From: Sphingomonadaceae bacterium
Lineage (GTDB): Bacteria; Pseudomonadota; Alphaproteobacteria; Sphingomonadales; Sphingomonadaceae
DNA: 64,000 nucleotides
Assembly (NCBI GenBank): GCA_025056155.1
Contig: JANWWL010000006.1
Coordinates: forward strand, 186,001 to 250,000
Reading direction: 5' to 3'
In this document: positions 3,417-6,587 of the stretch, piece after piece
Layout of the letters: each line of letters begins with the position of its first letter
How positions within the stretch are numbered: the stretch's first letter is position 1
Program-made: the position numbers and the translations under genes
Notes under the pieces: model-generated
Seen by the model: the letters and a program-made list of their open reading frames with translations, nothing else
Told to the model about the DNA's origin: nothing
Database searches by the model: none

Positions 3417-3971
3417 CTAGCGAGGGCTGCGCTTGGCCAGGATGCGCTGGAGGGTGCGCCGGTGCATCTTGAGTCGGCGGGCGGTCTCGGAGACGTTGCG
3501 GTCGCACAGCTCGTAGACCCGCTGGATGTGCTCCCACCGCACGCGGTCGGCCGACATGGGTTCGGCCGGAGGTTCGGGCTTCCCCCCTTCCGGCGCCAGC
3601 AGGGCGTTCACGATGTCCTCGGGGTCGGCGGGCTTGGCCAGATAGTCGGTCGCCCCTTCCTTCACCGCCGCAACCGCCGTGGCCAGATTGCCATAGCCCG
3701 TCAGGATCACAATCCGCGTGTCGGGCCGCACGCGCCGCAGCTCGGACACCAGGTCGAGCCCGTTGCCGTCGCCCAACCGCAGATCCAGAACGGCGAAGTC
3801 GGGCTTCAGTTGCGGGATGAGCTCGCGGGCTTCGGCGAAAGACGCCGCCGCCGTCACCGTGAAGCCTCGCCGCCCCAAGGTGAGGGCCAGGCGCTGGCGG
3901 AAGCTCGTGTCGTCGTCGGCCAACAGCAGCGTGCCCCGCGGCTCGACGGGGGTCGCTTGCGTTTCCATCAT
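3417..3971 (-). CDS. regA: Redox response regulator of the ActR/PrrA/RegA family
   Basis: This 184-residue response regulator is the partner of RegB. The receiver domain spans about residues 14-125, with the acidic pocket at Asp20-Asp21, the phosphorylated Asp63 (VLDLRLGDG) and Lys113 (LAKPAD). The C-terminal Fis-type helix-turn-helix (about 143-184, ending ETARRLKMHRRTLQRILAKR) is the near-invariant DNA-binding tail of RegA proteins. The family activates or represses genes for respiration, photosynthesis and carbon or nitrogen fixation when oxygen falls. The start at 3971 overlaps the regB stop in an ATGA junction, so the two are translationally coupled. A second ATG lies one codon further in. 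Confidence 0.95.
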   Translation of the reverse strand: MMETQATPVEPRGTLLLADDDTSFRQRLALTLGRRGFTVTAAASFAEARELIPQLKPDFAVLDLRLGDGNGLDLVSELRRVRPDTRIVILTGYGNLATAVAAVKEGATDYLAKPADPEDIVNALLAPEGGKPEPPAEPMSADRVRWEHIQRVYELCDRNVSETARRLKMHRRTLQRILAKRSPR

Positions 3972-5278
3972 GCACCCTCCTTCTGGCGCTGTCGCAATCC
4001 GGCCTCGATGGTGGCGCGCCGCCAGACCACCTCCACGCGGGCCCCGCCCTCGGGCCGGTTGGCGAACAGAATGCGGGCCCCCGTGCGCTCGAGCAGCGTG
4101 GTCGCGATGAAGATGCCGAGCCCGGTCGAGCCCGAGCGGGAGAACGACGGACCCAGGAACGGTTCGCCCAGCCGGGGCAACAGGTCGGGTGCGAAGCCGG
4201 GGCCGTCGTCGGCGATCGCCACCCAGAGTTCCTCGGGCGTCTCGCCCCCCTCGATCGTCACCCGGCGCTGGGCGTGCCGCAGCGCGTTCGACAGGAAGTT
4301 GCCCAAGCCGTGCAGCAGCTCGGGCGAGCGGCGCACGCGCGGCCCGCCTCGCGGCTCCCAGGGAACCACGAGCTCGACCGGCACACGGGTGGGCTCGAAC
4401 GGCTCCACCACCTCACGCAACAGGGCGGGCAGCGGCACCTCGGGGAAGGGATCCTCGGCTTCGGCGCGGCTCGCGATCCCCTCCAGGATGTCGCGCGCGC
4501 GCCGCACTTCCTGGGCCAGCAAGCGCACGTCGGGGCCGTAGGCGGGATCCCGGCCCAGCGCGTCCTCGAGGTCGCGGGCGATAAGCGTCATGGTGCCCAA
4601 GGGCCCGCCCAGCTCGTGCGCGGCGGCGGCGGCCAGCGCCCCCAGGGCCCCCAGCCGGCTTTCGCGCTCGAGCGCGGCTTGGGTGGCCACCAACGCCGCC
4701 TGCCGCCGGCGCGCCTCGGCCGAGATCGCCCAGGCGTAGGCCGACAGGAACAGCATGCCGAGCGCGATCGCAAGAAAGATGCCCAGACGATAGGTGTCGG
4801 GCAGCTCAAGCCCCTGGCCGGGATGCCAGGGCAGCGGCAGGGCCCGCTGCCACAGGACGGTGAGCAGCCCCAGCGCGAACAGCACGAGAAGGGCGGTGGC
4901 CCGGGCGGACAGCAGCGTGGCCGAGATGGTGACGGGCACCATCAGCCACAGGGCGAAGGGGTTGGCGAGCCCGCCCGTGAGGAACAGCAGCACCGAGATC
5001 TGCAGCAGGTCGAAGGCCAGGTTCCAGAAGGCGTTGGCGCCGTCCAGACGGTCCCCGGCGCGATAGAGGAAGTGCAGCGCGAGGTTCAGGAAGGCGGTGG
5101 CCCCCACGGCGGCCAGCGCGGGCCACCAGGGGATGGGAAAGCCCAATCCCAACCCCACGACGAGCAGCGTGACGAGCTGGCCTGACAACGCCGCCCAGCG
5201 GATGCGGATGAGGGTACGCACCTGGACGCCCGGCCGGTCGAGCCCCAGGGGCGAGCGCATGGACCGCCGTTCCACCAT
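3968..5278 (-). CDS. regB: Redox sensor histidine kinase of the RegB/PrrB/ActS family
   Basis: This membrane kinase phosphorylates RegA. Several transmembrane segments occupy roughly residues 25-190 and include the quinone-site heptapeptide GGLANPF. The H-box is AAAAHELGGPLG, with His221 in this numbering. The ATP-binding N, G1 and G2 boxes (NFLSNALRHA, DDGPGFAP, GSTGLGIF) are present. The classical redox-box cysteine, expected 40 residues after the histidine, is alanine here (Ala261, bases 4496-4498, context VRRARDIL). The ATG at 5278 has GAGG upstream. An ATG at 5260 and an extension to 5317 are alternatives. The gene is coupled to regA by a 4-bp overlap. An ankyrin gene ends about 50 bp upstream on the same strand. 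Confidence 0.93.
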   Translation of the reverse strand: MVERRSMRSPLGLDRPGVQVRTLIRIRWAALSGQLVTLLVVGLGLGFPIPWWPALAAVGATAFLNLALHFLYRAGDRLDGANAFWNLAFDLLQISVLLFLTGGLANPFALWLMVPVTISATLLSARATALLVLFALGLLTVLWQRALPLPWHPGQGLELPDTYRLGIFLAIALGMLFLSAYAWAISAEARRRQAALVATQAALERESRLGALGALAAAAAHELGGPLGTMTLIARDLEDALGRDPAYGPDVRLLAQEVRRARDILEGIASRAEAEDPFPEVPLPALLREVVEPFEPTRVPVELVVPWEPRGGPRVRRSPELLHGLGNFLSNALRHAQRRVTIEGGETPEELWVAIADDGPGFAPDLLPRLGEPFLGPSFSRSGSTGLGIFIATTLLERTGARILFANRPEGGARVEVVWRRATIEAGLRQRQKEGA

Positions 5279-5329
5279 CGACCTCGAGGCGTTGGGGCGT
5301 GACGTCGCGCGGGGCAAGAGGCCGCAAGG

Positions 5330-5923
5330 TCACAGGCGGGGGCCGGGCGCCCCCTTGGCCTCGCGCCGCGGTGCTTCCGCCAGCAGGCGGGCGATCGGCC
5401 CCGCCCGCGGGTCGTTGGCGGCCAGGTCACGCGCCGACAGGCCCGTCTGGGTTTCCGCGATATCGGGGTTCGCCCCCTGGTCCAGGAGCAGGCGCACGGT
5501 CGGCACGTCGCGGGCCTGCACCGCAAGGAACAGCGGCGTCTGCCCACGGCCGTTGGGCACGTCGATGCCGGCCCGCCCGGCCAGCAGGATCCGCACGCCC
5601 TCGGTGAAGCCCGTGCCCGCCGCCAGGGTCAACGGCGTCTCGCCCGCGCGGTCGCGCACGTCGGGGTTGGCGCCATGCTGCAACAGGAAGGCCATCCAAG
5701 GCACGTCCTTGCGGCGTGTGGCGATGTGGAGGCCCGTCTCGCCGGTGGAGAAGTCGCGGGCGTTGACGACCGTCGTGCCCGGCTTGTCGAGCAGGGCCTT
5801 GGCAGCCGGCCCGTCGCGATCCCGCACGGCCTTGAGGAAGTTATAGGAATCCGAGAACTGCGCGGCCGCCGGCAGGCCCGTCAGGGCGAGGATCGGCACG
5901 AGAGCCTTGAGAGCGCGACGCAT
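5330..5923 (-). CDS. Exported ankyrin-repeat protein
   Basis: This protein of about 197 residues has a Sec signal peptide (hydrophobic core ending LPAAAQ) and four or so ankyrin repeats. The repeats show in the recurring TGLHIA, GETPLTLAA and GQTPLFLAV segments and in HGANPD/QGANPD loops. Ankyrin repeats mediate protein binding, and a periplasmic location is expected. The ATG at 5923 is preferred over an in-frame GTG at 5935. It lies upstream of regB on the same strand and may share its transcript. Small periplasmic ankyrin proteins of this type are common in alphaproteobacteria without a defined partner. Confidence 0.85.
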   Translation of the reverse strand: MRRALKALVPILALTGLPAAAQFSDSYNFLKAVRDRDGPAAKALLDKPGTTVVNARDFSTGETGLHIATRRKDVPWMAFLLQHGANPDVRDRAGETPLTLAAGTGFTEGVRILLAGRAGIDVPNGRGQTPLFLAVQARDVPTVRLLLDQGANPDIAETQTGLSARDLAANDPRAGPIARLLAEAPRREAKGAPGPRL

Positions 5924-5972
5924 TGTCGGTCCCACCTACCCACACGCCTCGTGACCTGCATATAGGCGGGTC

Positions 5973-6587
5973 ATGATCCGGCGCCAGAGCCGTTGGCCCC
6001 TCCTGCTCGTGGCGGCGGGGCTCGTCCTGCTGGTCGTGGCCCTGATCCAGGCGCCCCGGCGGGACGGCCCCCAGGGAAACCTCGAGGGAGCGGCCGTCGG
6101 CGGCGATTTCGCGCTCGTCGACGAAGACGGCCGGCCCGTGAGCCACCGCAGCTTCGCTGGCCGCTGGCGCCTCATGTACTTCGGCTACACCTTCTGTCCC
6201 GACGTCTGCCCGGTGGACCTGGGCCACCTGGCGCGCGGGCTCGCCCAGTTCGAGACGGAGTGGCCCGAGCGCGCGCTCAAGGTCCAGCCGCTCTTCGTGA
6301 CCGTCGATCCCGAGCGCGACACGCCCGCCGTGCTCAAGACCTTCACCGCGGCCTTCCATCCCCGCCTGGTGGGTCTGACGGGCACGCCCGAGCAAGTGAA
6401 GGCCACCCTTGCCACCTTCCGCATCCACGCCTCCCGCCGCGAGGGCGCAACCCCCGGCGCCTATCTCATGGACCATACGGCCGCGCTCTACCTGTTCGAC
6501 CCCGAGGGCCGACCGGTCGCCTTCCTGGCCGGCCCCGAGGCGACCCCCGAGGCCGTGCGGGATCTGCTCGCCCGGTTCGTGCGCTGA
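5973..6587 (+). CDS. senC: SCO1/SenC/PrrC copper chaperone
   Basis: This is a membrane-anchored thioredoxin-fold protein that delivers copper to the CuA or CuB site of cytochrome oxidase. It is 204 residues long, with an N-terminal anchor (about residues 8-28), the copper-binding CPDVC motif (near residue 75) and the conserved distal histidine in [10 protein letters not shown] (near residue 162). Its divergent position next to ankyrin-regB-regA matches the regB-senC-regA clusters known from purple bacteria, where SenC/PrrC influences redox signalling. It overlaps the following gene by an ATG inside the stop (TGATG). Confidence 0.95.

Follow-up and report, generated by a model that had tools for sequence, protein, structure and literature searches.

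Which redox signal does a RegB-type histidine kinase still read once its redox cysteine is gone? The question is raised by a gene in the window, by which we mean the whole stretch of 64,000 nucleotides that was analysed, from a Sphingomonadaceae genome (2.2 Mb, 9 contigs) that shares one GTDB genus with Thermaurantiacus tibetensis. Descriptions of RegB give it two redox inputs, a quinone site and a conserved cysteine; according to the accepted model, the kinase is inhibited by either oxidised ubiquinone or oxidation of Cys265 (PMC9147068, where 'Cys265' is named, and PMC5359404). The cysteine is likewise described as a conserved feature in the relevant passages of PMC8191878, PMC6530869 and PMC5506826. 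A sequence-only reading of the window had claimed that alanine stands in place of this cysteine, exactly 40 residues past the H-box histidine, that the quinone motif is retained, and that the sensor may thus rely on quinone state rather than thiol oxidation. In Rhodobacter RegB the two residues are, in the usual numbering, H225 (phospho-histidine) and C265 (redox cysteine); below, positions are counted from the histidine as H+40 or H+4. The features of the gene that bear on the question are these:

3968-5317, reverse strand: regB, a quinone-motif histidine kinase free of cysteine (NF033792, ORF translation, AlphaFold model)
4496-4498, reverse strand: alanine codon GCG at the RegB redox-cysteine position (H+40), residue 274 of the ORF
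4604-4606, reverse strand: glycine at H+4 (HELGGP), placed by alignment, the predicted HisKA phosphatase residue (role of the position as given in PMC3510030 and PMC11502775)
4616-4618, reverse strand: H-box histidine, codon CAC, residue 234, invariant in a 37-row alignment
4955-4975, reverse strand: GGLANPF, placed by alignment, a putative quinone-binding motif
4997-4999, reverse strand: Ile107, adjoining a nearly invariant glutamine in the helix that precedes the quinone motif

The protein scores 460.2 bits against the ActS/PrrB/RegB equivalog model NF033792 (cut-off 350) and is an ActS/PrrB/RegB ortholog; with the narrower, Rhodobacter-type model NF045988 it stays below the cut-off (333 versus 570). 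Its most upstream start is the TTG at 5317, with the ATG at 5278 as the alternative. HATPase_c matches above its cut-off, and Pfam HisKA and 6TM_PilS match only below theirs. The AlphaFold model (pLDDT 87 on average, dropping to blocks of 63-69 near the phospho-histidine) predicts a membrane domain of six helices, followed by a two-helix dimerisation (DHp) domain, in whose second helix the H+40 residue is placed, and an ATPase domain; the closest solved folds are the cytoplasmic domains of ZraS, CpxA and EnvZ.

For comparison, RegB-type kinases from searches of relatives, the family, the class and the phylum, together with a scan of named genomes, were aligned. The family survey covered 397 Sphingomonadaceae genomes, 45 of which carry a RegB ortholog at E below 1e-110. 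The rows outside the window's clade number 270, same-genome rows and identical sequences being excluded: 208 come from relatives, class and named genomes (167 + 41), the phylum draw supplied another 22 alphaproteobacteria and 20 Pseudomonadota outside that class, and 20 are kinases of a second RegB-like type found in the family, which together with three already present (L026-L028) make 23 of 30 examined. The class search contributed the best match per genome for 190 other genomes (149 + 41), with weaker second matches left out. From the phylum search, 28 of the 61 genomes within the class were examined, 6 of which had been counted before, along with 20 of the 35 from elsewhere in the phylum.

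Translation of 3968-5317 confirms the alanine exactly 40 residues past the H-box histidine, in the context EVRRARDIL. The alignment with RegB-type kinases and the survey of relatives for alanine, both of which the sequence-only reading had called for, bear this out as a real departure. Because all 270 distinct RegB-type kinases outside the window's clade have cysteine at H+40, the only invariant cysteine column among them (the next best reaches 92/270), the alanine is, judged by this alignment, more than chance. The aligned spacing from histidine to site equals 40 in all 45 family orthologs and in 150 of the 167 class-survey rows (39-44 in the remaining 17). Within the family, 20 orthologs have Cys at the site, 21 have Ser and 4 have Ala; the Ser codons are AGC or AGT in 19/21, one base away from TGC or TGT. 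The sequence-only reading had named another cysteine in the redox box as the outcome that would speak against it; this is ruled out, since the ORF holds 0 cysteines in 449 residues read from the most upstream start, and none whichever start is used. A sequencing error is an unlikely source of the alanine, because RegB of T. tibetensis (L029) and of MAG bin52 (L030) also has Ala here, encoded by GCG and GCC. The window protein is without the H+40 cysteine that a thiol-switched (Cys265-type) RegB requires. Seventeen of the 25 family rows that lack this cysteine have none across the aligned region; each of the other 8 has one cysteine, or at most two, with seven other positions involved and residue 365 shared by three.

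Glycine at H+4 is a second change, one that the sequence-only reading had missed. This position is Thr or Ser in 270/270 outside rows (Thr 194, Ser 76) and Gly in 44 of the 45 Sphingomonadaceae orthologs, a residue seen in 0 of the 270. All 25 Cys-less family kinases carry the glycine, as do 19 that keep the cysteine, while the lone ortholog whose H+4 residue is Ser carries Cys at H+40; cysteine loss is seen only on the glycine background. Given that the cysteine persists in 19 of the 44 Gly-bearing kinases, the glycine appears to be the older of the two changes.

According to PMC3510030 and PMC11502775, the H+4 residue completes the E/DxxT/N phosphatase motif of HisKA kinases, N375 of CrdS is required for its phosphatase activity and for nothing else, and most of the Streptococcus systems became active when alanine took the place of the phosphatase residue. 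The motif is absent after the phospho-histidine of the window RegB (HELGG), and phosphatase activity is predicted to be weak or lost in this clade, by extrapolation from other HisKA kinases in which Asn or Thr became Ala, not Gly. The extrapolation reaches into a diverged domain, as the HisKA scores below the cut-off indicate: against Pfam HisKA (cut-off 26.9 bits) the three kinases of this clade that were scanned score 14.0 (window), 17.6 and 14.5 bits, and of five scanned outside RegB proteins four exceed the cut-off (27.3-36.4 bits) and one reaches 25.6. The diverged dimerisation region of regB spans about 4460-4650. Compared with the engineered phosphatase-deficient HisKA kinases, CrdS N375A and the Streptococcus HK+ Thr-to-Ala set, as these are described in the same two papers, the clade shares a small H+4 residue and the retained phospho-acceptor histidine; unlike theirs, its glycine is natural and occurs in 44/45 orthologs.

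The claim that the quinone motif is retained holds: GGLANPF lies at 4955-4975, and GGxxNPF is present in 45/45 family orthologs and in 264/270 outside rows. With the thiol site lost and this motif kept throughout, reliance on quinone state rather than thiol oxidation was a natural reading of the sequence and is partly supported. It is nevertheless an incomplete account, as replacement of the cysteine, by Ser or Ala, is seen in 25 of the 45 orthologs, the same clade has exchanged Thr/Ser for Gly at H+4, which should alter the output too, and RegA keeps Cys156 (see below), so that a thiol route may persist downstream. A possible trace of adjustment near the quinone site is residue 107, which in the family is Leu in 20/20 Cys-bearing orthologs and Ala or Ile in 22/25 Cys-less ones (Ala in the Ser clade), and which is Leu in 161/167 outside rows of the first survey. 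This column was picked post hoc by ranking all columns, and its covariation is confounded by relatedness; we take it as a lead, in that such a co-change would fit a retuned quinone site.

The genes around regB are arranged as follows:

3417-3971, reverse strand: regA, response regulator (NF033791, 285.5 bits, cut-off 250), overlapping regB by 4 bases (ATGA)
3504-3506, reverse strand: codon of RegA Cys156, a residue kept in the window
5330-5935, reverse strand: ankyrin-repeat protein, directly upstream of regB
5973-6587, forward strand: SCO1/SenC homolog, divergently oriented

A cognate RegA with its phospho-acceptor aspartate and a C-terminal HTH, for which the Pfam HTH_8 score stays below the cut-off, thus adjoins regB. 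The order SenC, ankyrin-repeat protein, RegB, RegA is kept in eight close relatives (L029-L036) among the ten wide-flank loci tested; the two distant loci (L037 and L038) have RegB and RegA, and no match to SenC or the ankyrin-repeat protein was found within the stretch examined. RegA was found at 44 of the 45 family loci, the contig ending inside regB at the remaining one, and both the phospho-acceptor Asp and Cys156 are present in 44/44. RegA thus retains Cys156 while its partner kinase in the window has lost all cysteines. For R. capsulatus RegA, PMC9147068 describes a Cys156 disulfide, driven by O2 and Cu, that lets the unphosphorylated regulator bind DNA.

Next to R. capsulatus RegB/PrrB/ActS/SpdS (NF033792), the window RegB is orthologous and shares the six predicted membrane helices, GGxxNPF, the H-box, the adjoining regA and a nearby SenC, but has Ala for the redox cysteine, Gly rather than Thr/Ser at H+4, and no cysteine at all. 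The second RegB-like kinase occurs in 30 of the 397 Sphingomonadaceae genomes (E 1e-49 to 8e-41, matches being counted down to 1e-40 only). At E 1e-40 or better, it is found together with a RegB ortholog (45/397) in one genome only (G237). It has the quinone motif and H-box in common with the window RegB, and differs in keeping both the Cys and the Thr at H+4 in 23/23 examined of the 30. The regBA system of Sphingopyxis granuli, to go by what PMC7713065 says of it, may belong with these second kinases. In the source genome no second RegB was found, the next best kinase matches reaching 31% over parts of the protein only. Nor did the papers listed in our literature searches yield a report of a RegB without the redox cysteine; the primary RegB papers are known to us through papers citing them, and an earlier report is possible.

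How often the cysteine was lost was addressed with a maximum-likelihood tree of 57 RegB rows, from which the two trait columns were omitted and which includes a named MAG outside the 45 (L031, with Cys at H+40 and Gly at H+4). Parsimony requires at least 3 changes between Cys and non-Cys, or 4 with three states. The alanine of the window lineage is nested among close members with Cys (G001, G274 and the group of L031 and L082-L085) or Ser (G065), and one deep clade of 19 rows has Ser throughout. A single GTDB genus holds both forms (Cys in G001; Ala in G000, G002 and G004), and the tree pairs G001 with G274, apart from the other three. Since the deep forks are poorly settled and long branches meet, including those of G011 and G067, the tree is compatible both with three to four losses and with one loss followed by regains.

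Our best reading, and in our judgement a rather probable one, is that the window encodes a working RegB that would be blind to thiol oxidation, set by quinones and equipped with weak or no phosphatase activity. Without the cysteine, O2 would no longer shut the kinase off via a sulfenic acid or disulfide at the dimerisation helices; as only the quinone input should then remain, autophosphorylation would track the ubiquinol/ubiquinone balance at the membrane and nothing else. RegA~P should be dephosphorylated slowly for want of the H+4 side chain, any direct thiol or O2 input would act on RegA Cys156, and the expected outcome is a kinase that is harder to silence by air. The two inputs might also be redundant, in which case loss of the cysteine could matter little in the cell. 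A bolder version, which we offer tentatively and regard as rather unlikely, would make this a class of RegB minus both off-switches, thiol brake and phosphatase: a quinone-only rheostat that would keep RegA phosphorylated in air, with the retuned membrane site (Leu107 to Ala/Ile) and RegA Cys156 taking control.

Against the reading of a working, quinone-set kinase stand several alternatives. That regB is simply decaying or mis-assembled we consider highly improbable: apart from the missing cysteine nothing was found in its support, whereas the ORF is full-length, related genomes share the substitution, gene order is conserved, and the 37-row alignment shows no variation at the H-box His, the N-box Asn or the D/G-box residues. 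The gene is under purifying selection, with dN/dS of 0.22-0.28 for four pairs involving the window and 0.20-0.28 for three other pairs; on these values and the same Ala in related genomes, decay is rejected. Neutral drift is harder to dismiss, although we hold it to be doubtful. On this account the thiol switch became irrelevant after the H-box change, the cysteine slipped to Ser by one base and on to Ala, and signalling goes on via quinone as in other RegB proteins. The single step separating most Ser codons from Cys would agree with such slippage, as would the persistence of Cys in 19 of the 44 Gly-bearing orthologs, the absence of the remaining cysteines too in 17/25, and the co-occurrence of Cys and non-Cys forms in one GTDB genus, even though the RegB tree sets G001 apart. 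However, one would not normally expect drift at a residue that is the same in each of the 270 outside rows, and Ser is uniform across the 19 rows of its deep clade.

The remaining alternative ties the loss to aerobic phototrophy: with the O2-sensitive thiol removed, RegB would stay on in air and photosystem genes would be made aerobically. The source organism is probably an aerobic phototroph itself, as pufLM and a PpsR/CrtJ repressor lie on another contig of its genome. Across the family, PufLM (PF00124) is present in 20/25 Cys-less versus 4/20 Cys-bearing genomes (Fisher p 8e-5, a value that ignores relatedness), and two of the five PufLM-negative Cys-less genomes (G026 and G090) carry a PpsR/CrtJ match over the cut-off. 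That marker was sought in 37 genomes out of the 45 and exceeds the cut-off in 17; only such matches were used, weaker ones occurring also in 8/14 control genomes. Yet just 2 pairs lie on well-supported branches, of which on average 0.4 change the same way and 1.6 show no difference (sign test, median p 1), although the traits are never opposed in the few independent pairs. Four phototrophic relatives (G001, G128, G274 and G307) keep the cysteine, as do all 15 of the PufLM-bearing genomes among 149 RegB-bearing ones outside the family, and the searches found no RegB ortholog in 52 of the 76 family genomes that bear PufLM. Strong as the crude association is, it is unsupported once relatedness is considered, and we do not claim a link. 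With too few independent events, and with outside phototrophs keeping the cysteine, phototrophy is rejected as the cause of the loss; as an explanation we rate it improbable.

For the family, these kinases suggest that a RegB without the usual predicted phosphatase residue can be evolutionarily stable. Close relatives bearing Cys, Ser or Ala at the redox site are natural proteins that separate the thiol from the quinone route, and the clade lets one ask which of the two RegB routes matters in organisms that live in air.
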